IMG/VR virus record: IMGVR_UViG_3300042691_028904
Location: 1-22,269 of that record
Direction: 5' to 3' (one strand)
From: a virus
Length of the DNA: 22,269 nucleotides
Shown here in pieces: positions 2,055 through 16,274 of this stretch; position 1 is the first letter of the stretch, and every line of letters starts with the position of its first letter. Under the pieces are notes generated by a model. That model saw only the letters and a program-made list of their open reading frames with translations. It was not told where the DNA came from and ran no database searches. Both the position numbers and the translations under genes were made by a program.

Positions 2055-5000
2055 TTAAACCGTCGCCTCCGGTAATGCAACAACACGCAATTGAGAAACT
2101 AAAGGCACATTAACTGTGCTTGAACCAAACATAACTATCTTAATTGCGAATGACATGAAGTCTTTATATTCGACTCCATTAGCACCCGTATAGCGTACTC
2201 TATTATCAGGATCGCCCGAATTGTAACTTCCTGGAGCAAAAATTGCCTCGAAGAAATCACCTCTGCCTTTTGAAATAGCATTAAGAGTTGTCGAAGTTTC
2301 GGTCATCAATTGATAATTGTTATCATTAAACTCAGAAGGGTCGGATTCTGAAAGTAGTTTGTAATACACAAGAATTCCTGAACCCGGTGGACGATAAAGA
2401 TCCATATAAACACGTAAATCACCGGCATCAAAACCTGGAGCAAGTTGGACTCGTTTTGTGATGTAGCGAATATTTGAGTTACCTCCGGATGCCTTATCTT
2501 CCCCATTATATACGGCAGTAGCACCAGAACCACTTCCTCCAGAAATTGTTAATATCGGTGAAGTGAAGTAACCTGTTCCAGGATTAGTCAACTCAATTCG
2601 AACAATTTTATCACCATCGGTAACTGCCCTTGCTGCACCACCACGATCATCGGCTGTTCCATTTGGATAAGTAAACGTCACACTTCCATTTGTTGTATAT
2701 CCAGAACCTTGATTCACAATAATAAATCCTGTATTTTGCAACTCCATGTTATTGATTTTATTTTCAATCGTCAAAAGATTTAAACGAGTGATGTCAATCA
2801 TTGGAGAAACATCCGGATTATTTGTTGTCAGCGTGGCTCTTACTTGGAATGTAGTATTTCCCGTTGACTTATTAAGTATTCTTCTACCGTATCCATCATC
2901 ACAACTATAGTCGGTATTTTTAACCGTAGTTAAGAGTTCATGAGTTCCGCCGGTCTCAAGTTCTGAAATAAATTCGTAAGAAACATCAGAACCAGATAAA
3001 GCCGCATCTGTGGACATAAGGTTAAAAGTATCAAAGACAGTATTCGCCGAGTAGTCTGTCATATCAACTTCAAAGAATCCTTGTCCAGTACCAGTTGTAA
3101 ACACTCTCTTTTGAATACTGAACATGATGTCTTGTTCTTGATCAGCAGTCCAAGTAGAACCGTTTTGTGATAAGAATAAAGACCCCGTGTAAGGTTGTTC
3201 CGAAATTTTCACAGTAGTTCGAATATCAGTTGCACCAATTTGTGCAATATAACACTCATACCCATTACTGTTCGAAACAAGTACAAATGAATGTTCTCCT
3301 GGTAGTAACAATATTGGAACATCAAATTTAAACTCAGTGTATTTGTTTGAATCTGTTACATCAGGATTATCAGTTATTGTTACTTGATCTGGAGTCAGAG
3401 TTTTTTCGGCATATGGATAAACCACAGCGGAAGAAGGATACCCGTTATCAACTGGTCGGATTTGACAAGTCACCGGAGCAGTTAAATCTTTTGTCTTGAA
3501 GCAAACACGAACAGAATCAATCACGATACCTTGTGGGTATTGATTTGGATTAATCAAGAATGTTTGTGCAAGAGGGTCATAGTATCCAATAACAACGTTG
3601 TTTTTTCTAGTTGTAACAACTGACGATTTGATTGAAGTGACTGTTTCGGTTGTTGTTTCGTTTACAGTTGATCTTGAAACCGTAGGAGTAAAGACTGTCA
3701 CAGAAGTTGTTTGTTTTGTATCTACTTGACCTTGTGACAAAAACTTTACATCTCCATTTGTTCTAGAGTTTTCAATGTTGTTAAACGAGTCATCAATTAA
3801 ACGTAAAACTTTTTCACCGGTTCTGAATACATCTGCTGGTAAAAAGAAAATAGCGGCTGTTGCACCTTCTTTTGTTGTCTCTAAATCACCTATTGTATAA
3901 ACAGAAGTTGAATCTGGAATAGTTGTCCAATTTCCATTAATTGTTGCAATACGGGTAGAGGAATCATATGAACTTATCGTAACAGACTGTCCTTTACCTG
4001 TTCCAGCAAGAATTTGAATTCTTTTATTCACATAATCAGCGGCATTAGTAGCACCACCAGCAGAAAAAGCAAATGTGATCGTGTTGGTTGTGCCAGCAAG
4101 AGCAATTCCTGTTTGATGATACCATTTGTCTGCTCTGTACGTTCTTCCTGTAATATCACCTTTAACCCAAATACCATTTGTTGCACACTGATCCCAAGAA
4201 CCAAAAGGTGCTGTTGGTTGCATATTTACAGAGAACAAATTGTTATTTGAAGTCAATGCTGCACCACCAATTCCAATTACTGTATCTGTACTTAAAAGTT
4301 CTGTGTTCGAAGACGCCTGATAAAAAGTTACAGTTTCAGAGTTCGAAATTGTTGTCTGATATTGCAAGTTATTTTGAACCATCTCAAAACGATTTACTTT
4401 TGCAATTTTATCATTAACATTTACATTATCAAAAAATGCGTTAAGTGAAGTAAAAGGTTTAAATTTAGTGGCCACAACCAATATGTTTTTTGCTCTCATA
4501 AACTGAACAATACTCACATCAATTAATCTATCACCAAAAGATTGAGTAAGTTGTTTAGGTGCAATTGTGCTAACGATGTTTGTACGTGTTTTCTCAAGAG
4601 TTTCTGTCTGAACAACATTAACTCTTTCCGTATAATCCACATCTCTTTTTACTAAGATGCCTGCACCGCCGCCACCGGAAACTGCTACGCCACCACGGGC
4701 TTCAAATCCACGTGCCCAACTGTCATCACCTAAAGCATCTATTCCAATAAGTTCTCTCTTACCCACTTCTCCTATTTCTTGAACGCCAATCACTCTGGTA
4801 TTCCAGTCTCCATATTCAGTAAACTTCATGGCTTCCCATGCTTCTCTGGCTTCAGCACCTCCAGATAAATCGATATTTTGTGACTCTAAACGATTTTCGG
4901 AACGCCAAACATCGGAAGGTGGATCAAGAACAATCGAACCAATGTAATTAACAATATTAAACGGGTTAATATTCATTGTTTTTGATGCTCTGTTCTGTAC

Positions 5001-8000
5001 AACAAAAGGAGTATTTGTTGAAGAAAGCAACATCATTGGACCATTAATATCAACGTTTTGATTTGAAACTGAATTATTAGAAAATACTCTTGTGGAAGCA
5101 AGATTGAATGAGCCACGTAAAGTGCGTGTAACAATGTCGATTGCCGAATTAAAATCGGGTCTGACTACATCAGCCGCACTTTTATCAATAAACGAATCAA
5201 CAAATACGCCATTTTTTGGTCTTGCTATACCAAATGAATCACGAACTGTTCTATCGTTTTTATTAATTGTGGCAAGCTCGGCAATCGATAAAGATGTATA
5301 CAATTCAAGGTTTGTAATTCTCTTATCAAGTTTGGCGATGTCCTTCATTGTATATCTTCTGTGATTAAATGCTTGAATTCTCACAGCAGAAATCAACGTC
5401 ACATAAGGAGGATAACCTAAAATGTAAAGAGTCATTGAATCATCAGGTTCAACAGGCACAACTGGAGTGAGCGATGGTGTTCCTTGTAATACTTGAAACT
5501 CTCTATTTTTATTCAAAACAATTCGGTCAATTCTAGGTAAATAATATTCAAAGTCCATCAAAACATCTAAACCGGGTTCAGCAAGTTTTGGTCCTAAAAC
5601 CGCTTCATCGACATCCAAAATAAAGTTATTTGCTCTAGATGTTGTTGTAGCACTAACACGAACCGGACGGAAATCTAAGTAATCTCTTAGGAAAACTTTT
5701 GATCCTCCTTGTAGTGCGTAAATAGGAATCATATCATAACTGACACCTTTACCACCACTTTCTTGTGTACCAAGTCTTGTATAAGAATCGATATCAAAAT
5801 AACCGGAACCGTTTGAAGAAAATCTGTTATATCGAACGACCAAAGGACCTATTGGAGCGTTTTGTCCTGGTTTTAAGGTAATTGATGACCAATCATAATA
5901 GGAGTCTTTTTGACCGGTATTTAAAATATATCTACTCGTAACATTTGATGATTCGGTAAGTGCATTATATACAGACGTAGTTACATTTGCACCATTCAAA
6001 TCAAAAATAGCGTTAATAGAGTGAACATCAGTCACGTACAACCATTGTGGCTGTCCCGGTCTTCTTTCAATAATTGATTGATTGATGATAGTCTGACCGT
6101 CATTGGGTGCAATATTGGCATTGGTATTACCAGAAACAGCACTACCAAAAACGCTAATATATGTTCCTAGTCCTAATCCCCATGCTGGATCAACCAACTG
6201 AGTATTTGCTTTGATAAATGTTTTTGTTTTTGAAGTTGGATTTGAAGCATTAACAACAGCATAAACGTTTGCTGTCATGTTTGCACCATCTGTTACAGTG
6301 ATTGTTCTTGATGCAGTGTCTACGGTAAAATTTTCAGCCGGAACAGTTCTACCAACTTGATACCAACTTGTACCCGAATTAGTTGGAATAACTTGATAAT
6401 ATCTTTGTTTTGAATCGGTTGTAGTTGCACTTTGTAGAGTTTCTCCAGTACCTAAAGATAATGCTTGCGATACTCCACCAGTAAATGTAACAGTTTGATA
6501 TAATCTTTTATATGAATATGAAAAATCACGTATGGTATTATCAGCAACGTTTTCAACACCAACCCTAACTAGTAAAGGCTCTCTCTTCGAATCTCTGATT
6601 GAAACAGGTTGAAATAATCCTTTAGACTGAACAAGTGTGGTTGTTGATGTACCAATTTGTTCATCTTTTGACAAAGGTGAAACGTTCGCCATTGCAACAC
6701 GGGATAAACCAGGACCAAATCTAACGAGAGATTCGGCATCAGCAAATTTAGGTTCAAGTGTAAATCTAAAATTGGTTCCAACAGCGGTACTAAAAGGTGG
6801 AAAAACTGTAGCAGTTAAACTCGACCCAACATAATCAGTAATTATTCTTACTGAATTGTCACTAGGTGTGTTTAGCGGTGCGCCACCAACAATCCTCAAT
6901 GATAAACCTTTGTACACATCATTGTTTGCAGCAAAGCCAGCAGGAAATACTACTGTACTTGCTGAACCACCTGTTGCATTAATACCATACCCACCGTTCG
7001 CTGCAATAGAACGAGTGTTGACATCTGTTAGATATACTTTGTAAATATAGTTATTACTTTCGCTTGTGTTGCCAGAAACAGAATAAAAAGAAACAAGTTT
7101 AATTTTTGTGTTTCCAATTGTTGTGTTTGCGTAAATTGAAGAATTTCCAGCATAACTAGTTATTTGACCAGTGTTTAATAATGAAATTTCAGCATTAGAA
7201 TATTGATTTGTTGCAAAATTGCCATACATTCCATTGGCAAAAATATAATAACCATATTCAACCTCAATTCTACGATTTTCCACGGTCTCCGTAGTTCTTG
7301 GTTTCGGTACAGTTATCGTTGTTGGCGAATCAGTTCTAAATTCGTAACCTTTAACATATGCTTTACCTGAACCCAAAGTGACATTAGCAAATGCTGAATT
7401 TGAAGAACTATCAGTGAGTTCTAATGGGAAATTTTTAATAACATAATCACCAGACTCATCTTCTGTTCTGCGGGCAAATTCATCACCCAAAGCGGCGTAA
7501 ATTGGAGTATTAACGGTTTTCTGTGGAACACCATCTTGCATGGTTCCTAATTCCACAAACTGTTTTAAATCTGTGCTGCCGATTGGCCTTGTTGCCAATG
7601 TCATTAGAACTTTATAACGATCTGCACCGGGTGCTTGGAAGTTTGAAGAGCCTTGTGCTGGGTCGAGTAGAGTTGTATCTTCAGTGTAATCAATTAAATC
7701 TTCAGATACAGAAAAACCAACAATTGCACTTCCCTCACGGCTGTATTTGTTAACCGCCACGCTTTGTGGTTGCACCTTGACAAAAATTCCATCATAGTAA
7801 AATACACCCTCATTCACAGAAAATGATTGACAGTTTCCAGTAGCATTTGCCGAAGCAGTATTTGCGTAATATGTTATTGCTTGTGGGTTTGTATTTGAAG
7901 TGTAAATGGTTTCATTAACTGTAAATGGCTCACCATATAATTGATTAATAATAAATGTGATTGGTTCACCATTCGTTGCATCTGCGCCATAAGATTTTAA

Positions 8001-8324
8001 AACGTAAGCACGTTTTGTGTTGGCGGAATTTATAATTACTTGTTGATCAAAATTTAAATAAGAAATATCTTGATTTGAATAAGTTGAAGCAATGTTAATA
8101 TAGGCTACATTTTGAATTGTAATTTGACCACCAGTAACCACGGATCCTGTTTTAAAAACATGATCACCAAACTTTTTGATTTGATCTTGTAGGGTAGTTT
8201 GAAGTTGTGTTAATTCACGGGCTTGAACAGCATTTCCCGGTTTAAACAAAACCCTATAATAATTTTTATCATCGTCAAAATCGTCGTAATAAGGATCTTG
8301 ATTAAAATTTGTAGTTAGTGCCAT
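2055..8324 (-). CDS. Giant DUF4815-type baseplate/tail-fibre structural protein, 2089 residues
   Basis: The largest gene here. ATG at 8324 with AAAGG seven bases upstream, 10 bases after the gp8 stop. The N-terminus (residues 1-80: NQDPYYDDFDDDKNYYRVLF, then KPGNAVQARELTQLQTTLQD, then QIKKFGDHVFKTGSVVTGG) is the signature of DUF4815-like virion proteins. Further landmarks are KAYVKGYEF near residue 330, a short helix AKLDKRITNLELYTSL near 1000, a glycine-rich joint (VSGGGGAG) near 1215, VSIVQFMRAKNI near 1270, DPLAQTFLI near 1583, a CQIRPVDNGYPSS lectin-like beta stretch, and a GSGY/GTGY module at 1868-1945. T4 carries genes 9, 10, 11 and 12 at this place. This single protein probably takes over part of the peripheral wedge and fibre-anchoring role; that is inference from position. 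There is no signal peptide, frameshift or internal stop. Confidence 0.82.
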   Translation of the reverse strand: MALTTNFNQDPYYDDFDDDKNYYRVLFKPGNAVQARELTQLQTTLQDQIKKFGDHVFKTGSVVTGGQITIQNVAYINIASTYSNQDISYLNFDQQVIINSANTKRAYVLKSYGADATNGEPITFIINQLYGEPFTVNETIYTSNTNPQAITYYANTASANATGNCQSFSVNEGVFYYDGIFVKVQPQSVAVNKYSREGSAIVGFSVSEDLIDYTEDTTLLDPAQGSSNFQAPGADRYKVLMTLATRPIGSTDLKQFVELGTMQDGVPQKTVNTPIYAALGDEFARRTEDESGDYVIKNFPLELTDSSSNSAFANVTLGSGKAYVKGYEFRTDSPTTITVPKPRTTETVENRRIEVEYGYYIFANGMYGNFATNQYSNAEISLLNTGQITSYAGNSSIYANTTIGNTKIKLVSFYSVSGNTSESNNYIYKVYLTDVNTRSIAANGGYGINATGGSASTVVFPAGFAANNDVYKGLSLRIVGGAPLNTPSDNSVRIITDYVGSSLTATVFPPFSTAVGTNFRFTLEPKFADAESLVRFGPGLSRVAMANVSPLSKDEQIGTSTTTLVQSKGLFQPVSIRDSKREPLLVRVGVENVADNTIRDFSYSYKRLYQTVTFTGGVSQALSLGTGETLQSATTTDSKQRYYQVIPTNSGTSWYQVGRTVPAENFTVDTASRTITVTDGANMTANVYAVVNASNPTSKTKTFIKANTQLVDPAWGLGLGTYISVFGSAVSGNTNANIAPNDGQTIINQSIIERRPGQPQWLYVTDVHSINAIFDLNGANVTTSVYNALTESSNVTSRYILNTGQKDSYYDWSSITLKPGQNAPIGPLVVRYNRFSSNGSGYFDIDSYTRLGTQESGGKGVSYDMIPIYALQGGSKVFLRDYLDFRPVRVSATTTSRANNFILDVDEAVLGPKLAEPGLDVLMDFEYYLPRIDRIVLNKNREFQVLQGTPSLTPVVPVEPDDSMTLYILGYPPYVTLISAVRIQAFNHRRYTMKDIAKLDKRITNLELYTSLSIAELATINKNDRTVRDSFGIARPKNGVFVDSFIDKSAADVVRPDFNSAIDIVTRTLRGSFNLASTRVFSNNSVSNQNVDINGPMMLLSSTNTPFVVQNRASKTMNINPFNIVNYIGSIVLDPPSDVWRSENRLESQNIDLSGGAEAREAWEAMKFTEYGDWNTRVIGVQEIGEVGKRELIGIDALGDDSWARGFEARGGVAVSGGGGAGILVKRDVDYTERVNVVQTETLEKTRTNIVSTIAPKQLTQSFGDRLIDVSIVQFMRAKNILVVATKFKPFTSLNAFFDNVNVNDKIAKVNRFEMVQNNLQYQTTISNSETVTFYQASSNTELLSTDTVIGIGGAALTSNNNLFSVNMQPTAPFGSWDQCATNGIWVKGDITGRTYRADKWYHQTGIALAGTTNTITFAFSAGGATNAADYVNKRIQILAGTGKGQSVTISSYDSSTRIATINGNWTTIPDSTSVYTIGDLETTKEGATAAIFFLPADVFRTGEKVLRLIDDSFNNIENSRTNGDVKFLSQGQVDTKQTTSVTVFTPTVSRSTVNETTTETVTSIKSSVVTTRKNNVVIGYYDPLAQTFLINPNQYPQGIVIDSVRVCFKTKDLTAPVTCQIRPVDNGYPSSAVVYPYAEKTLTPDQVTITDNPDVTDSNKYTEFKFDVPILLLPGEHSFVLVSNSNGYECYIAQIGATDIRTTVKISEQPYTGSLFLSQNGSTWTADQEQDIMFSIQKRVFTTGTGQGFFEVDMTDYSANTVFDTFNLMSTDAALSGSDVSYEFISELETGGTHELLTTVKNTDYSCDDGYGRRILNKSTGNTTFQVRATLTTNNPDVSPMIDITRLNLLTIENKINNMELQNTGFIIVNQGSGYTTNGSVTFTYPNGTADDRGGAARAVTDGDKIVRIELTNPGTGYFTSPILTISGGSGSGATAVYNGEDKASGGNSNIRYITKRVQLAPGFDAGDLRVYMDLYRPPGSGILVYYKLLSESDPSEFNDNNYQLMTETSTTLNAISKGRGDFFEAIFAPGSYNSGDPDNRVRYTGANGVEYKDFMSFAIKIVMFGSSTVNVPLVSQLRVVALPEATV
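2490..2723 (-). repeat. GSGY/GTGY beta module in the giant structural protein
   Basis: Residues about 1868-1945 hold two GxGY units (IIVNQGSGYTTNGSVTF and IELTNPGTGYFTSPILTISG). Each is followed by a glycine-rich GGAARA or GSGATA stretch, and a DGDKIVRIEL strand lies between them. The same arrangement appears in the gp6-, gp7- and gp8-like proteins upstream. Function unknown; the pattern suggests a small beta-sandwich or beta-prism unit. Confidence 0.75.
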
Positions 8325-8334
8325 TTATTAACCT

Positions 8335-9906
8335 TTAAAATCTGACAATAAGTTTGATATTTTCAGCTTGACCTTCTGCTCTGGTAATTTTCGTAACGTT
8401 TTCTGTATATAAAATATCACCAGAATATGGTTCGAATTCTGGATTTTGCACCGTTACAATTAAACGATCAGTAACACCAGAACTTGCTCCTCTTAGCGGT
8501 ACACCAGTTCTAAATGTTCCTCGAACGTTTGTAAGTCTAATTTGATCAAATGTTTGATCAATAACTGAACCGTGTGCAACTGTATTTGCTGCTGTGGTAT
8601 CATTTGGCAAGCCTTGATACGCAAATTCATCAATAGAATAGTTTGAACCAGCAGTTAAAGTTAAAACAGTTGCTTGTGAAACAACCGGGCTAGCATTTGC
8701 AGGTGATACAACAGTTGATTCACCATATTTATGAGGGTTTACAAATATACCATACTGTCTAAACGTAGTGTTCGCAGGTATTTTACCATTTTCAGTAGAA
8801 TCGATTTCACCAATTCGTGAAACAACCATAATACTATTCGCACCCAATTCTCTAGCAGGATTATATGCGTGACCATATTTCATATCACGAATTACACGAA
8901 TAGATGCATTTGAGCCTGTGCCATAAACAAAAGCATTGGCTCTGGAATAGTTAATTCCAATTGTAGTTACGGTTACTTTAGTTAAAAAACCATTTGCGTT
9001 AATTGATGCAGCAGCCACAGCACCCGTTCCATCACCATCAATAAAGATTCGTGTTGTCAGTGCAATTTGATTTGCTGTGGTGTTACCACCACCTGCTGAT
9101 GTAGTTGCTGTAGATAAGAAGATGTTATTATTTGGAACATCTATTCTGGAAATGAATGTGCCAGGTGCTATTCCTGTACCCGAAACTGACATATTAGCCG
9201 CAACGTTTGTTGTGTTGGCCAAATTCAGTCTTGTGCAACCAGAAGAAAAAACAGGAATGACTGCTACATTATTCTCATAAAAACCAGAGCCAGTATTTTC
9301 AACAATGATTGTTGTAAGTTCACCATTAACAACACCAATTGGATTTATGTTGTAGTCTAATTGACTTGTATTAGTTGGTGCTGGAATCCAATCATCGGCC
9401 AGAAACTTGTTCGATGGTTTAACATTAAACATATACTTCCAAATATAGCCATCGGAAGTTGCGATATTACCATTAGAAGATGTGTAGTCTCCTGTTGGTT
9501 CTACAGTTGAATTTGCTGATGAATTGTTCGATAAGCATTTATAAACATTTCGATCAGATGTATAAACATACATCGGCTTGACATTTAGAGAGTTGTTACC
9601 AGTGAGCAACTCGTCCAAATCAATTAAATCATCATATTGTTTATATTTTGTATTTGCTGTCCAAGATAGTTTAGGTATTACAAGTTCAACATCGTTGCCA
9701 GTAATCTTCTTAGCAGCGATCATATTCTCCCACGCAAGTTTTTCATCATTAACTGAATCAACAATTAAATTTGGACTGCTTTCATTGGCATAAGGTAAAT
9801 GATTGCCAATAAAAACATAACCAATTTCGGGTGCAGGCTCAAAGAAAGATTCTTTGAATTGAACCGCAGAGATATATGGTATTTTTTTAGTTGTAACTGA
9901 AGTCAT
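8335..9906 (-). CDS. 8: Baseplate wedge protein, gp8-like
   Basis: 523 residues, against 334 in T4 gp8. Family marks are the N-terminal YISAVQFKESFFEPAPEIGY, the central KQYDD, then VYTSDRNVYKCLSNNSSANS, TVEPTGDYTS and DGYIWKYMFNV (residues 88-162), and the C-terminal EFEPYSGDILYTENVTKITR followed by AEGQAENIKLIVRF. The last is a typical gp8 ending. Between them, residues 199-339 contain a GSGF/GINY module of the type seen in neighbouring wedge proteins, interrupted by about 65 extra residues, which accounts for much of the added length. In T4, gp8 dimers sit at the outer wedge on gp7 and gp10. ATG 9906 has no Shine-Dalgarno-like sequence, and an AATAAATA box lies 6 bases upstream. It starts 9 bases after the gp7 stop. 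Confidence 0.88.
   Translation of the reverse strand: MTSVTTKKIPYISAVQFKESFFEPAPEIGYVFIGNHLPYANESSPNLIVDSVNDEKLAWENMIAAKKITGNDVELVIPKLSWTANTKYKQYDDLIDLDELLTGNNSLNVKPMYVYTSDRNVYKCLSNNSSANSTVEPTGDYTSSNGNIATSDGYIWKYMFNVKPSNKFLADDWIPAPTNTSQLDYNINPIGVVNGELTTIIVENTGSGFYENNVAVIPVFSSGCTRLNLANTTNVAANMSVSGTGIAPGTFISRIDVPNNNIFLSTATTSAGGGNTTANQIALTTRIFIDGDGTGAVAAASINANGFLTKVTVTTIGINYSRANAFVYGTGSNASIRVIRDMKYGHAYNPARELGANSIMVVSRIGEIDSTENGKIPANTTFRQYGIFVNPHKYGESTVVSPANASPVVSQATVLTLTAGSNYSIDEFAYQGLPNDTTAANTVAHGSVIDQTFDQIRLTNVRGTFRTGVPLRGASSGVTDRLIVTVQNPEFEPYSGDILYTENVTKITRAEGQAENIKLIVRF
8890..9312 (-). repeat. GSGF/GINY beta module inside gp8, with insertion
   Basis: Residues 199-339 contain TIIVENTGSGFYENNVAVIP, then an insertion of about 65 residues (219-285), then DGDGTGAVAAASINANGFLT and KVTVTTIGINYSRANAFVYG. 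The order (GxGY, GDGxGAxAxA, xNGxLxxVxVTxxGxxY) is the same as in gp6 residues 529-608. The insertion splits the first half of the module from the second. Confidence 0.7.
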
Positions 9907-9912
9907 AAATTA

Positions 9913-9920
9913 TATTTATT
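9913..9920 (-). promoter_or_regulatory. Late promoter-like box AATAAATA just upstream of gp8
   Basis: The coding strand reads GCAATAAATATAATTTATG; the box overlaps the TAA stop of the gp7-like gene and ends 6 bases before the gp8 ATG. With T4-type spacing, transcription would begin about one base before the ATG, so a transcript from it would be essentially leaderless. The box may act for downstream genes, or may be chance. It is one of only three copies of this 8-mer that I found on the coding strand, all at gene junctions. Confidence 0.4.
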
Positions 9921-12900
9921 GCTTGAATATGATTGCTGTTTGTGCGTTAGCTGTCTGATACCAAGACACAGGATTAAATGTAATGACCGCACCAGAGCCA
10001 GCACTGTTCGGCAACACATCTGGCGTGTAATAATATTCTCCAGCACCTTGAAGAACACTACTGCTATTTAGTGTGACTTTACGAATAGCTCCGTTACCTG
10101 GATAAACTTCAACAATCGCATTGGCTGCGGTATTTCTACCTGTAAACCCTACAGTAATCACAGCATTCGTCTGTGCATTCGCAACGGGAGTGACTGTAAA
10201 CACTGCATTTGTGTATGAGTTACTATTTGCAGTAACCGTTACGAAAGCAGTTTGACCAGTATTAGCAGTTGTCGTAACTATCAGATTTGCCACATTTCTT
10301 GTATTGGCACTATGACCTATAATGAAAGATGCCACGGTTGATGGTGTCTGTAATGTAGCAGTAGCGGGATTGAGAATACCCACAACAATAATATCTGCAC
10401 CGTTGGCATACAATCCAACATCATTTACGGTTGTTCTAACAATCGCACCAAAAGCGCCGTTAACCTCAACTGTACAATTCGCAACAAGATTCGCTGTTGC
10501 TTGTGTGGTTGAAAATACCACATTGCCGTTTACATAACCTGAGCCTCCAACGATTGGAAGAACTTGAGTGACTGACACTGGTGTAATGTTTGGTGTTACG
10601 GTTGTTGGAGGAACACGATAAAGTCCGACATCCGTAACTACTATCGACTGCATGTTAATAACACCATTTGATGGATATACTTGATAGGTTGCATTGGCAT
10701 CTCGTACAGCAAGACCACCACTGAATACTAAGTAACCGTTCGCAAGGCTCTGACCAACAAATGTGTTAGCAACGGTGTTTGATGTAATCGAACTTATGGA
10801 GTTAGGTGAATTGTTCAAAGTCGCAGTAGGTGTGGACAGATACAATCCAGGATCATCAATTGTAATCTTGCGAATTTGTCCATCCAAAGGTTTCATTGTC
10901 AATGTAAATGAAGCATTGCCAACATTTGCAGTCGCCAGTGGTGTGCCTTTGTATAGACCACCACTTACCAAATGCACGTTGTATACAAGGCCTTGAGAGT
11001 TGACTACAATTATAGCATTTGCACCAACGTTGTCACTTCCCGCTCCACTAAATTGAACATATCCATTTACACCATATGCAGAAGCGTTTACAGTAATGGA
11101 ACTTACTTGTGCAGATAATGGTGGGAATGTTTCAACACGAATTGTAGCGGGACGAGCAGGATTACCGCCAGAGAATACCAATACACCATTCGAATGACCG
11201 TTACCTGTGCTAGTTACAGTAACCGAAGAGATTACAACATTTGAATTAGTGTTTGGTTTGGCAGTCGGAGCAGATTGATACAAACCAGAATCAATCACTT
11301 CAACTGTATTGACTACAGTATTTGGGTGAACAATTAATCTAACATTAGCATCTCTTAGTGGATCGCCACCCGAGAATACTAACCAGCCGTTTGAGTAACC
11401 TTGTCCACGGACTGATATGCTAATGCCATTTGCATATACGACACGATGTGGGTTACTATCGGGTATCGCAATAGGTTTATTAGCGTACAAACCACCAGAT
11501 AAAAGTGTTAGTGTTCGAATTGCACCATTTGAGCTGTACACTTCTACGTTTGCAACCGCTGGTATTGCTTCATCTGTACCAGAGAATGTCATTACACCAT
11601 TTTCATAGCCAGAACCGGATGCTGTAATTGTAAGACTTGTAATCTGACCGCCACCATTTGAGAATACCAGATATCCGTTTGAATATCCAGAACCAGCATT
11701 TGCAATTCGTAGATTCGAAATATTTGATGTTGTAATTAAAGATGTATTGCTGACAATAGTATTGATTTTTCTAATCTCACCGTTCACTGCAATCATAGAA
11801 CCTAACGACAGTATACCTTTTGCATTTGCGATATTATACTTTGTGCTGATACCAGTAACTACGACTCTACCATTTCCAACGTTGACTTTACCGGAGATTG
11901 TATTTGCTGAAAAACTTTCAACAGAGACATCTGTAAGTTCAACAATGTTTTCTCTATTGTAAAGAGCATAATTAACCATACCAACAGGATGCAGCAATTC
12001 CTTCAACATCGTCTTATACTTGCTGAATTCTGTTTGAGAAGATATTACATATGAGTAATCAACATAATAATCTTCACCTTGAATTTTTCTTTCAAAAGAA
12101 GAAATAATAGAATCTGAAGTTGTCCAACGACCTGGCGCTGAAGCGTAAGAACGTTCAATTTCTGCTGTGGCTGTCGCTGTGCCATCACCACCCACAATAC
12201 TTACAGTAGGGTTATATTCGTAACCAGAACCTGGATTAATGACTTTGATTGAAATGATTTGGCCATTAGCAGTGAAGCCCGTTGGTACCAATCGCTCACC
12301 ATCACCAACTAAAGAATCAATCTCAACATTGGCACCAGACCCGGTATTCGAACTAACAGAAATTGCTGGAAAAATACCTTGTGTATAGCCATATCCACCA
12401 AGTGGCCAACGGCCATAAACACCTATTTTCTTATTTGATGCGGAGTATGTAAATACGGACGAAACGGTAGCAATGGTGTCACTCGTAATTGAAGATACAA
12501 TTCTAGATTCATTATTAATGTCTACAAGATCACCACCTTTTAAATCTTGTGTGAAGAAAGTTCCAGTTCCAATAATTTCATTACATGCTGATGAAACCTC
12601 ACCTACACCACGAATACGACCGTTGGCCGAATCAATTCTTTGAATCGCACCACTAACAGAAATTTTACCAACGACAGCCGCCGCCATTTGACCATAAGTG
12701 CCAGGTGGGTTATTTCCAAAAGTGACCTCATCACCAATTTTATAGTTTGAACCACCATCATTAATTTTATAACGACCAATTGACTTTAAACTTTTTGAGT
12801 AACGAAATTTACCATCTGAACCATATTGTGCGCCAGCGGCATCTAAGAACGTAGAATTCTTTTCAGTTAATGGTACTGTGGTATAAAGAATTTTGACGTT

Positions 12901-14214
12901 GCTAATAGGACCAACAGTGAGTGTAACATAATTAAAAGCATTAGCAATTGAGTTTGCAACATTAATAAATGGTCTTGAAAACGCCGAACCAAAATTTGCA
13001 TTAGTTATCGCCGATTGTACATTTAAATTTGAGATTACATCCGATGAAACTTTAAATGAGTTTGCAGCATTAGCACCTGAAGTGTCAATATTATCAACAA
13101 CAACAGTCATAACTGTAAATGAATCGTTGCCGGAAACCGAAATTGGTGATGCGTTGGTAAATACTGCACCGCCGTGTACCACATTAATAGTATCAATTTC
13201 GCCAGTAATAACTCTTTCAACCGTACCAAAAGCATTAACTGACGCATTACCGCCGAATACGAAAACCGAATCACCTACACTATAATTGTTTCCCGCACTA
13301 ACTACGTTGAAATTTCTTACGATAGAAAAAGTTGATGCACGAATATCAATTGATATATTATTTGTTTCATCGTTAATTGGTATAGTAACGATTTCACCAT
13401 TCAAAAAATTACCATTTAGAGACTTTAGATTAATTAAAAGTTCAATTGGTAAACCCAAGTTCAAAGTGTCTGAAATAATTCTTCTACTTGCGGTCTCAAT
13501 GATTGCTGACGCACGTGAAGTAATTCCTGTAACTTTTCGGTTGTTTAATAGCGTTATATCAAAATTTTCATACACAATTAATATTTCAGCATTGTTCGCA
13601 GGTGCGGCTACAAAATTTAATTGTCGATATTCTTTGTTGATAAAGTAATCGACATTAGGTATTTTGAGTACGTTATCTACAAAAATACTTACATCATTCA
13701 CTCCCGATTTCTGCGCTAAGTAGAAAATCTTATTAGATCCATTACCAATGTAACGACTTGAAATATCTGGGTTGATTCTTAATTTATTATCTACTTGCCA
13801 ATTACTGGCTGATGCACGAAGAACATTATTTTTTGGTAAAATTACATCAATGTCTTCACCAAAAACAAGTTGAAATAAAAGTTTAAATGAACTCTCAGAA
13901 CCTTTTGAGCGATATAGAGGCAAAAGATGTTTGAAAAGAAGTGCTTTATTTGACTGTACGTTTAATGGTACTAAAGCACCATACGTATTATAAAAGTTTC
14001 TTTCAAATCTCTCCAAAGACTCGTCAACATCTCTAATGTTTCTTAAAGTTTTTGCTGTTGTGACTAAGTTATTAGACGTAAGCGCAGTGTTGGCCTGAGT
14101 TTCTAAAAACTCGTAGTATGCCTCCAGGAAGGTGATGAATTTTGGATATTCATCACGAATATATTCTGGTACTTGACGATTAACAAGTATCGATGTTTTT
14201 AAATCTGCGGACAT
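9916..14214 (-). CDS. 7: Baseplate wedge protein, gp7-like, with long repetitive C-terminal extension
   Basis: 1432 residues, against 1032 in T4 gp7. The N-terminal region (residues 12-125: VNRQVPEYIRDEYPKFITFL, then EAYYEFLETQ, then KALLFKHLLPLYRSKGSESS, then FKLLFQLVFGEDI) is the helical start typical of gp7-like wedge initiators of marine T4-like phages. A second family mark at residues 715-755 (DYYVDYSYVISSQTEFSKYK, then MLKELLHPVGMVNYALYN) normally lies near the end of the conserved core. Beyond it, residues 760-1432 are a beta-rich extension with repeated units (see the separate repeat entry). Two further GSGY-like modules sit at about 303-345 and 655-690. ATG 14214 shares a base with the gp6 stop (TAATG) and has no clear Shine-Dalgarno, so coupling to gp6 translation is likely. 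The gp7 name rests on N-terminal pattern and gene order between 6 and 8. Confidence 0.82.
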   Translation of the reverse strand: MSADLKTSILVNRQVPEYIRDEYPKFITFLEAYYEFLETQANTALTSNNLVTTAKTLRNIRDVDESLERFERNFYNTYGALVPLNVQSNKALLFKHLLPLYRSKGSESSFKLLFQLVFGEDIDVILPKNNVLRASASNWQVDNKLRINPDISSRYIGNGSNKIFYLAQKSGVNDVSIFVDNVLKIPNVDYFINKEYRQLNFVAAPANNAEILIVYENFDITLLNNRKVTGITSRASAIIETASRRIISDTLNLGLPIELLINLKSLNGNFLNGEIVTIPINDETNNISIDIRASTFSIVRNFNVVSAGNNYSVGDSVFVFGGNASVNAFGTVERVITGEIDTINVVHGGAVFTNASPISVSGNDSFTVMTVVVDNIDTSGANAANSFKVSSDVISNLNVQSAITNANFGSAFSRPFINVANSIANAFNYVTLTVGPISNVKILYTTVPLTEKNSTFLDAAGAQYGSDGKFRYSKSLKSIGRYKINDGGSNYKIGDEVTFGNNPPGTYGQMAAAVVGKISVSGAIQRIDSANGRIRGVGEVSSACNEIIGTGTFFTQDLKGGDLVDINNESRIVSSITSDTIATVSSVFTYSASNKKIGVYGRWPLGGYGYTQGIFPAISVSSNTGSGANVEIDSLVGDGERLVPTGFTANGQIISIKVINPGSGYEYNPTVSIVGGDGTATATAEIERSYASAPGRWTTSDSIISSFERKIQGEDYYVDYSYVISSQTEFSKYKTMLKELLHPVGMVNYALYNRENIVELTDVSVESFSANTISGKVNVGNGRVVVTGISTKYNIANAKGILSLGSMIAVNGEIRKINTIVSNTSLITTSNISNLRIANAGSGYSNGYLVFSNGGGQITSLTITASGSGYENGVMTFSGTDEAIPAVANVEVYSSNGAIRTLTLLSGGLYANKPIAIPDSNPHRVVYANGISISVRGQGYSNGWLVFSGGDPLRDANVRLIVHPNTVVNTVEVIDSGLYQSAPTAKPNTNSNVVISSVTVTSTGNGHSNGVLVFSGGNPARPATIRVETFPPLSAQVSSITVNASAYGVNGYVQFSGAGSDNVGANAIIVVNSQGLVYNVHLVSGGLYKGTPLATANVGNASFTLTMKPLDGQIRKITIDDPGLYLSTPTATLNNSPNSISSITSNTVANTFVGQSLANGYLVFSGGLAVRDANATYQVYPSNGVINMQSIVVTDVGLYRVPPTTVTPNITPVSVTQVLPIVGGSGYVNGNVVFSTTQATANLVANCTVEVNGAFGAIVRTTVNDVGLYANGADIIVVGILNPATATLQTPSTVASFIIGHSANTRNVANLIVTTTANTGQTAFVTVTANSNSYTNAVFTVTPVANAQTNAVITVGFTGRNTAANAIVEVYPGNGAIRKVTLNSSSVLQGAGEYYYTPDVLPNSAGSGAVITFNPVSWYQTANAQTAIIFKQ
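10399..11694 (-). repeat. Modular protein repeats in the gp7-like C-terminal extension
   Basis: Residues 841-1272 contain seven copies of a G(S/Q/N)GY.NG.LVFSGG-type strand-turn-strand. They start near residues 841, 867, 937, 1004, 1047, 1154 and 1223, examples being GQGYSNGWLVFSGG, GNGHSNGVLVFSGG and GQSLANGYLVFSGG. Six GLYxxxPxA motifs sit near 908, 977, 1086, 1123, 1197 and 1267. The basic period is about 67-70 residues with some units lost or longer. At DNA level the complement shows a recurring degenerate motif around GAGAATACYA at about 10725, 11173, 11373 and 11663. The copies have diverged, so the expansion is not recent. Confidence 0.85.
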
Positions 14215-16274
14215 TATACAGTTTCTAACGTTGTACTAATTGATGTTGGATCATCTTGATCTATTGTAATTATTGTATTTTTCTGCGTACTTATAATGCC
14301 TTTTTCCGACTCAATTGAAACACGTACATCACCATCAACAGATTGTGTTCCTTTTATATTGATGTTTGAAATCGTAATAACACCAGTATCATAGTCGATT
14401 TCTCCGGCATTTTCATCAACCACTTGTCTTTGAGCGAAAGAATCATAGTAAACCGTACGAATTGTACCGGTTTTTCCATCAATTACTGCTGAAGCGGTAG
14501 CACCATATCCACCTCCACCAGTAATTGTAACAGTGGCACGTGTATAATCGATGCCACGATTCGTTACTTCGATATTTTGAATTCTACCATTAACTATGAC
14601 CGCCAAAGCGTTTGCACCAACACCATCACCTTCAATCGTAATCGTAGGTGTGGAGGTAAATCCAGCACCGGGATTAGTAACTTGAATGGATGAAACACCA
14701 GAGAAAGATTGTGGAATTTCATCGAATTGAACTTCACGGTCAACACCACTTGCATCTGTAACTGTAAAAATTGTCGATGTTAGTTTGTTACCAATTGTAC
14801 CTCTACGCAATGGTGAATTAAAATTAATAGTATAAGGTGTAGATGCATTCAAAGTTGGAATAAATCTTTTTTGTAAACGAACCGATATTGATGAACCTAT
14901 AATAGAGTTCGTGTCTACCGAATCAATTGAATCCTGAACTTTTGAAAGTATAAACTGCGAATCGAATTTATCTAAATTGGCTATCTTATACGTTAGAATT
15001 GCGTTTCTTATTGAAGTTTTTAACTGCTGTTCTGTTAGGGCAGTTTTTCTGACATCATATGTAACTGTCGGTGAAACAAGTAAATATAAGAATTCGGGGT
15101 CACGTATTACCGCTTGAATAGCGACAATTGCTTTTGGCTTAATAATTTCATCAATAATTCTTTGCTTTTCTGTATCAGACAGAAAATAGTTTTCTCTAGT
15201 TTTAAGTGAGATGTAAACAACACCAAATTTAGGTGGTGTCTCATCCTCTCCACCCCAAACAGAAACAGAATCAACCGCTGGATAGTTTTTCTGTATAAAA
15301 GCCTCATAATCTGAAAATGTCACCAAACGGTTTTGTGTTGTAAATTGTAAAGGTGCAGCGAATTTAATATTATCTACAGATTCTCTTTCAGCACCACCAG
15401 CGGCTTCACTTATAGGGTCAATTATAAAATCTGTGATTGTATTGTTCAGGGAGTCACTAAGTGTTTGACCAGCGTCTACAAAGTTGTTTGCTTTATTTGC
15501 AGCAGTTCCATTTGTGACAAGATAAGTCACATTAACAATTGAGCCATCTGGAATTTTTCTACCAATTACATTATCACCAAAGTAGATTTCATATCTTTGA
15601 TTTTTTCCTTCTTGCAAATAAAACACTTCAGACTGTGTTGTTGTGTTACTTGCATCAGCCGCATAAGTGTAGATAAAAGACTGTGTATTGGTTGAAGAAG
15701 GTTGTACAGAAACGGTAAGCGTTGTCGTGTCAATTTCTGAATCAGGTAGCACGAAAATCTGCTTTGGATTTGTGGCGTTATTTTGATTAAACGAATATGT
15801 GGCTAATTGACCCTCATAAATTGGAAGGTTTAAAAAGGTAAACGAAGTGTTTGACTTCGTTGCTGTAACCTCGTCCAACGTTACGAATGAATAACTAATA
15901 CCATCTATTTCATTGGAAAGAAATCTAAACCCTTTAGGTATTGTTAATGCTGATTCTGTGGTCGAGTTCGTATTGGCTGTAAAATTAATAACAGCACGTG
16001 ACGCCTTTCTTGAATACGGAACATATCCTAAAACTTTAGAGTGTGAAATAACCGATTCACGCAACAGAGCCGTATCCATGAAGGACTCATTTGCGACCAT
16101 ATTCAAATAATATGCTTGATAGTGAGTATTGTATGCTAAAATATCAAGTAAAACGGATAAACCTGATCCTTCAAAATCATAGTCGGTGAATTCAGATTGC
16201 TGATTCAAAAAAGTTTTTAAATTTTCCTTGATCGTATCAAAATCAAGTTCAGTTACTCTTAGTCTGTCTGCCAT
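14214..16274 (-). CDS. 6: Baseplate wedge protein gp6
   Basis: 686 residues, close to T4 gp6 (660). The N-terminal half has the hallmark of the family: LRVTELDFDTIKENLKTFLN, then DYDFEGSGLSVLLDILAYNT, then NESFMDTALLRESVISHSKV, then LGYVPYSRKASRA (residues 5-95). Midway are ISEAAGGAERESVDNIKF, QNRLVTFSDYEAFI and YPAVDSVSVWGGE (289-342), as in J-like baseplate proteins. In T4, gp6 dimers form the continuous ring joining the six wedges around the hub. Residues 529-608 form a GSGY-type module (PGAGFTSTPTITIEGDGVGA, then GRIQNIEVTNRGIDY). ATG 16274 lies 2 bases after the gp25 stop, with GGAAAG about 14 bases upstream in the end of gp25. No frameshift or missing segment is visible. Confidence 0.93.
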   Translation of the reverse strand: MADRLRVTELDFDTIKENLKTFLNQQSEFTDYDFEGSGLSVLLDILAYNTHYQAYYLNMVANESFMDTALLRESVISHSKVLGYVPYSRKASRAVINFTANTNSTTESALTIPKGFRFLSNEIDGISYSFVTLDEVTATKSNTSFTFLNLPIYEGQLATYSFNQNNATNPKQIFVLPDSEIDTTTLTVSVQPSSTNTQSFIYTYAADASNTTTQSEVFYLQEGKNQRYEIYFGDNVIGRKIPDGSIVNVTYLVTNGTAANKANNFVDAGQTLSDSLNNTITDFIIDPISEAAGGAERESVDNIKFAAPLQFTTQNRLVTFSDYEAFIQKNYPAVDSVSVWGGEDETPPKFGVVYISLKTRENYFLSDTEKQRIIDEIIKPKAIVAIQAVIRDPEFLYLLVSPTVTYDVRKTALTEQQLKTSIRNAILTYKIANLDKFDSQFILSKVQDSIDSVDTNSIIGSSISVRLQKRFIPTLNASTPYTINFNSPLRRGTIGNKLTSTIFTVTDASGVDREVQFDEIPQSFSGVSSIQVTNPGAGFTSTPTITIEGDGVGANALAVIVNGRIQNIEVTNRGIDYTRATVTITGGGGYGATASAVIDGKTGTIRTVYYDSFAQRQVVDENAGEIDYDTGVITISNINIKGTQSVDGDVRVSIESEKGIISTQKNTIITIDQDDPTSISTTLETV
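14451..14690 (-). repeat. GSGY-type beta module inside gp6
   Basis: Residues 529-608 read as two tandem halves. The first is SIQVTNPGAGFTSTPTITIE followed by GDGVGANALAVIV. The second is NIEVTNRGIDYTRATVTITG followed by GGGYGATASAVI. They are separated by NGRIQ and followed by DGKTGTIRTV. This is the clearest two-unit example of the module in the window. Confidence 0.8.
15841..15861. other. Perfect 8-bp inverted repeat inside gp6
   Basis: AACGAAGT (15841-15848), a five-base spacer, then ACTTCGTT (15854-15861), an exact inverted repeat. It lies within gp6 codons for ATKSNTSF (residues about 138-145). It could fold as a short hairpin in the mRNA. There is no following T tract, so it is not a standard terminator. 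Confidence 0.5.

Follow-up and report, generated by a model that had tools for sequence, protein, structure and literature searches.

Why does one glycine-rich beta module occur in several different proteins of a single phage baseplate? The question is raised by the IMG/VR record of an uncultured virus, IMGVR_UViG_3300042691_028904, the complete 22,269-base sequence of which was analysed here (hereafter, the window). A preliminary description of this sequence reported a recurrent GSGY-containing unit in gp6, a gp7-like protein, gp8 and a giant DUF4815 (VrlC-like) protein, and proposed either gene-internal shuffling or a common job within one wedge. The open reading frames and module positions it gave for these four proteins were confirmed. 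We propose, with a probability of roughly 0.6, that the module is a mobile barrel that faces outward and serves in docking or adhesion; several virion proteins would have acquired it by independent insertions, and each copy would then have stayed at its site by inheritance.

The GSGY module in four baseplate proteins

The iterated profile of the unit comprises 36 columns with the consensus G-[EGQR]-I-x-x-I-x-V-T-N-P-G-S-G-Y-x-x-P-x-V-x-I-S-G-G-D-G-x-G-A-x-A-x-A-x-I, and its column 12 is Gly in 100% of 447 units. Each unit consists of three predicted strands, laid out as strand, GxGY loop, strand, GGxGxGA loop, strand and NG turn; two units amount to about 80 residues, and a tandem pair is predicted to form a closed barrel of six strands. 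We scored the proteins with profile hidden Markov models (HMMs) from which the tested protein had been left out, using 500 shuffles of each protein as background. The best shuffle score was 6.7 to 9.7 bits, as compared with 24.6 bits (residues 529-558) and 20.1 bits (562-598) for gp6, 20.8 bits (652-684) for gp7 and 26.8 bits (1906-1937) for the DUF4815 protein. The gp8 copy was recovered by hhalign comparison with the gp6 module (98.6%, E 7e-16), where unrelated control profiles reached 4% at most, and the family profile, which includes gp6 rows, gave 99.8% with gp6, 97.9% with the middle gp7 copy and 96.2% with gp8. These results are far above chance and exceed the glycine-rich background, so that the occurrence of one module in four baseplate proteins, as first described, is borne out.

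In gp6 (14214-16274, minus strand), the module was located by HMM and AlphaFold2 (AF2) to residues 524-610 (14445..14705, minus strand), comprising units 525-561 and 563-599 and a closing strand. The AF2 model, built from 41 sequences, places strands at 526-534, 544-549, 555-561, 564-572, 580-585, 593-599 and 602-610, with a predicted local distance difference test score (pLDDT) of about 77-91. Searches with the whole gp6 model by Foldseek and VIA returned gp6 homologues. Among phage records, this gp6 is best matched, at about 39% across three quarters of its length, by Kyanoviridae that infect Pelagibacter and Methylophilales. Alignment with cultured relatives shows the module as a clean insertion at the turn of a C-terminal beta-hairpin, where their gp6 reads ..FLD-DDGQGN.., and the gp6 proteins of eight isolates, from syn9 through T4-like RB32, have no module. 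Within the clade of the window, 77 of 81 gp6 sequences have both units and the other 4 are truncated at 535-575 residues; every clade gp6 long enough to hold the module has it. Upstream of gp6, a module pair is also present in large proteins, the longest of about 850 residues, at the loci L076:7010-9568, L069:1-2046, L075:517-3078 and L079:1773-4046; these have no PHROG match where tested.

The gp7-like protein (9916-14214, minus strand) holds more copies than the preliminary description had counted. The middle pair, at residues ~605-687 (12154..12402, minus strand), includes the canonical unit 651-687 (INPGSGY); it scored 51.6 bits in the HMM and 96.9% against gp6 in hhalign. A divergent copy that resembles domain I of gp18 (copy a, residues 299-346, AGNNYSVGD; 13177..13320, minus strand) was detected by hhalign at 90-93% to the gp6 module. 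Two features had been missed: a second divergent copy (copy h, residues ~480-535, GGSNYKIGDEV; 12610..12777, minus strand), with hhalign values of 96.5% to copy a and 77% to the gp6 module, and a C-terminal array of degenerate units over residues 831-1432 (9919..11724, minus strand), in which the HMM found units at 831-856, 856-891, 931-953, 995-1025 and 1222-1246. Since many gp7 orthologues stop at about 840 residues while others are 1343-2313 residues long, the array appears to have been gained, lost or resized. The protein at the gp7 position of HTVC008M (I899_gp055, L084:16846-19896) is labelled 'head closure Hc2', a label that may have been transferred via the module, because the neck family phrog_460 also contains it.

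The gp8 copy (gene 8335-9906, minus strand), identified by AF2, hhalign and VIA, spans residues 197-340 (8887..9318, minus strand). A 65-residue insert splits its unit 1 and accounts for the weaker HMM signal in the window (28 bits after iteration, residues 308-338); two units are evident in most gp8 orthologues. The AF2 model shows the strand order A-B-C-A'-B'-C' with an extra domain inside B, and a pLDDT of about 74-94 over residues 200-340, in a model that is otherwise mostly poor (mean pLDDT 57). Alignment and VIA place this second beta domain at residues ~221-285 (9052..9246, minus strand), an insert inside an insert; VIA gave it Z scores of 9.6 to a tail-tube protein (9n71 103-179) and 8.8 to the LKA1 tailspike (4ru4). 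Foldseek found nothing for the gp8 model in the PDB at E 0.001, and matched gp8-like baseplate proteins in BFVD. One gp8 orthologue (L043:11053-12867) has an additional module-like insertion at another site, residues ~109-185, which suggests continuing insertion within the clade.

In the giant DUF4815 protein (2055-8324, minus strand), the module occupies residues 1867-1942 (2499..2726, minus strand; HMM 42 and 12 bits). Two units are present in seven of eight sampled long orthologues, that of the window counted, and the HMM found no module in the homologues of Melnitz-3, HTVC008M and S-SRM01. Other baseplate proteins gave no HMM units (gp25, 0/79; gp5, 0/61; phrog_350-type tail protein, 0/49; gp53, 0/37; tail-tube cap, 0/29), nor did a scan of the baseplate region of T4-like RB32 find a module copy.

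Occurrence beyond the wedge and probable relation to T4 gp18

The idea that the module is special to one wedge was not upheld: further copies are present in proteins of the sheath, tube, neck and spike, and in proteins secreted by bacteria. The gp6 module alone matched 14 PHROG families at E<0.001 (16 listed to E 1), including gp8-type, wedge, hub/lysozyme, neck and tail-fibre families, and an overlapping set was matched by a copy from Synechococcus phage syn9. That phage carries the same module family in gp101, gp103 and the neck protein gp14 (phrog_701, 708 and 460), with tandem arrays in the protein after gp6, but its gp6 differs from that of the window in having no module. The Jilinvirus phages Salmonella phage PT1 and Escherichia phage ep3 have the two-unit module in a different host protein, the tail sheath. 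The R-pyocin sheath aligns to residues 5-142 and 228-474 of the PT1 sheath (chain breakpoint 134/136), so that the PT1 module at 149-224 (units of 35 and 45 bits) falls between the aligned parts as a clean insertion. In a Pseudomonas tail-tube protein, 248 residues are aligned to a model of 154 positions, and the module lies in the excess part; prophage tail-tube proteins and phage tailspikes also carry it.

A genome scan with a consensus query, which favours copies near the consensus, found the module across many phyla of bacteria and in some archaea. The 51 module-bearing host proteins scanned included matches to multicopper oxidase (9), SusD (6), phage tail-tube (4) and phage sheath (2) models, and laminin-G, autotransporter-repeat and PilY1 proteins also carry it as an insertion. 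A tblastn search with the PT1 module returned six close records only, probably owing to low-complexity filtering. Promiscuous accessory beta domains, such as Ig-like domains, are already known on phage virions (PMC9230969, PMC8718954). Phage Ig-like domains (Big_1, Big_2; for example the C-terminal domains of lambda gpV and T5 pb6) likewise decorate tail-protein surfaces, but they are mostly C-terminal, whereas the GSGY module is inserted at turns, has a different strand pattern and has no Ig-like Pfam match: no Ig-like family was found for gp6, gp7, gp8 or the DUF4815 protein (E<=1) or for the isolated module (E<=10). A Pfam search with the isolated module gave no model for it, and a literature search confined to one open library found no paper naming a GxGY module. 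A PDB sequence search with the tandem profile returned only isocitrate dehydrogenase and BURRH repeat proteins, the latter at E 3e-4 but with no stretch that was significant by itself; we judged both to be chance matches. The GSGY module is apparently an unnamed family of promiscuous accessory beta domains.

We found that the divergent gp7 copies lead to domain I of the T4 sheath protein gp18. In hhalign, copy a matched this domain at 93% (E 3e-7, score 41.4; maximum of 100 column shuffles 22.9) and copy h at 95% (E 3e-8, score 46.7; corresponding maximum 18.5). The gp8 model was aligned by VIA to residues 99-188 of the T4 gp18 fragment 3fo8 (Z 6.4, root-mean-square deviation 2.2 A, 66 residues). 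Domain I (PF22639; PDB 3FO8, 3FOA) resembles the module in having six strands, the number predicted for the module, a GSNY motif at the matching place and a position as an insert, and in T4 it faces outward; it differs in having an extra helix and in lacking a regular GGxGxGA loop. In T4, it forms a six-stranded barrel that protrudes outward, outside the sheath subunit contacts; it binds the baseplate in the extended sheath, as well as the retracted long tail fibres, and the substitutions G106S, S175F and A178V inhibit fibre retraction (PMC3004832). The wild-type residues G106, S175 and A178 agree with the RB32 gp18 sequence only if numbering starts after the initial Met, and under that numbering G106 is the Gly of TPGSNY, which the HMM aligns to the invariant column 12 of the unit. 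By eye only, the SSSSGLAA stretch that contains S175 and A178 resembles the GGGSGATA loop of the module. The GSGY module is probably related to gp18 domain I; for the gp6 and gp8 copies this homology would be transitive, through the gp7 copies, because the direct profile comparisons were not significant.

Several observations weigh against reading the module as a gp18-like docking barrel. In direct comparisons, domain I gave only 0.6% with the gp6 module and 0.3% with that of gp8; PF22639 scored 13.4 bits on gp7 301-346 against a cut-off of 27 (E 0.077) and was not listed for gp6 or gp8 in the Pfam search. The VIA match of the gp8 model to 3fo8 has a Z score in the range where no more than a common arrangement may be shared, and the loss of fibre binding by G106S may be a simple destabilisation of the loop. 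The presence of the module in many bacterial secreted proteins would suit general adhesion equally well.

Function and history of the copies

The most likely mechanism is that an accessory domain, complete in itself and about 80 residues long, enters surface turns of unrelated virion proteins and leaves the host fold undisturbed. Its two conserved glycine loops would bind some other part, for example a fibre that is folded back, an adjacent tail protein or a glycan on the cell surface, and the barrels would add weak multivalent contacts around the baseplate. By analogy with T4, we infer that the copies of the window are probably exposed on the baseplate surface and act in docking or adhesion. 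Docking of virion parts is favoured by the T4 precedent, and surface or glycan adhesion by the bacterial and tailspike contexts; the two roles are compatible. Of the earlier suggestion, a single mobile module whose copies probably share one kind of job stands, and glycan or ion binding may be part of that job; confinement to one wedge and recent recombination within the genome do not stand.

The alternative that fares best is that the module adheres weakly to the host surface (to glycans), is scattered over the virion like Ig-like domains, and docks no virion parts. We regard this as possible. It accords with the SusD-like outer-membrane (6/51) and multicopper oxidase (9/51) contexts, with those of laminin-G, autotransporter-repeat, PilY1, tailspike and fibre proteins, and with the proposal that add-on domains of sheaths help adhesion (PMC9230969). 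However, gp18 domain I, the only relative of tested function, albeit an indirect one, binds fibre and baseplate, and the module shows no conserved aromatic or acidic glycan-site pattern apart from structural Gly, Tyr, Ala and Val positions.

It is unlikely that the wedge copies dock on each other by module-module contacts, as the preliminary description had suggested. The T4 proteins gp6, gp7 and gp8 do contact one another (PMC3004832), but the module also occurs in sheath, neck, tube and lone bacterial enzymes, the gp6 and DUF4815 proteins of cultured relatives manage without it, and T4 gp18 domain I makes no contacts to its own kind (PMC3004832).

Recent gene-internal shuffling between genes of the window genome appears very improbable. 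Between phages, copies that share a position have a mean identity of 0.50-0.67, as compared with about 0.27-0.51 for copies at different positions, with no excess within one genome over between genomes; orthologous positions are therefore closer to each other than are the copies of one genome. In a tree of 95 rows, each position forms one clade (support 100/98 for gp6, 100/100 for gp8, 100/100 for the gp7 middle copy and 98/97 for DUF4815), and bacterial and other phage rows fall among these clades; the tree has 84 columns and its bootstrap had not settled, and the support applies to each position clade, not to the branching between clades. The higher identity within positions and the single clade for each position indicate that the copies are old and were inherited in place, and recent shuffling within the genome is refuted by the same data. 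The pair formed by the gp6 and DUF4815 positions is one of the more similar (~0.38-0.51 identity). An ancient transfer between these two genes, as distinct from recent events, may have taken place. On the reading proposed here, gp6 and the DUF4815 protein would have gained the module after divergence from the cultured Kyanoviridae, gp7 and gp8 would have had forms of it earlier, and each copy would have been inherited in place since then.

That the similarity is a background glycine-rich strand pattern rather than homology has almost nothing in its favour: the composition is of low complexity and BLAST filtering probably masks some of the motif, but the leave-one-out HMM, the shuffles, the profile controls and the clean, domain-sized insertions speak against it.

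Genomic setting and implications

All of the large genes are on the minus strand, and their order, which matches a T4-like baseplate, is tail-tube cap, gp53, phrog_350 tail protein, gp5-like protein (a call that rests on orthology), a 241-residue protein, PAAR and gp25, followed by gp6, the gp7-like protein, gp8 and the DUF4815 giant. A 306-residue protein at 909-1829 of the window has an internal repeat of its own (..GGDTFxxGNLTISGNTTLDxIGFxDLSxAG..), which does not belong to the GSGY module family.

A bolder and rather doubtful extension is that the module is a widespread, unrecognised mobile barrel with the fibre-gripping sheath domain of T4 as its prototype; here it would form a fibre cradle spread over gp6, gp7, gp8 and the DUF4815 protein, holding folded-back fibres or sensing the host before triggering.

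The analysis defines a domain that has no Pfam model and recurs in at least some 15 families of phage proteins, as well as in proteins secreted by bacteria of many phyla. It also supplies T4 gp18 domain I as a probable relative, for which the fold and the phenotypes of mutants are known. The shared module may account for some transferred annotations. Since both the insertion site and the insert-free state are known, with the R-pyocin sheath as counterpart of the PT1 sheath and the Melnitz or HTVC008M gp6 as counterpart of the clade gp6, the function of an accessory virion domain becomes testable by deletion of the units.

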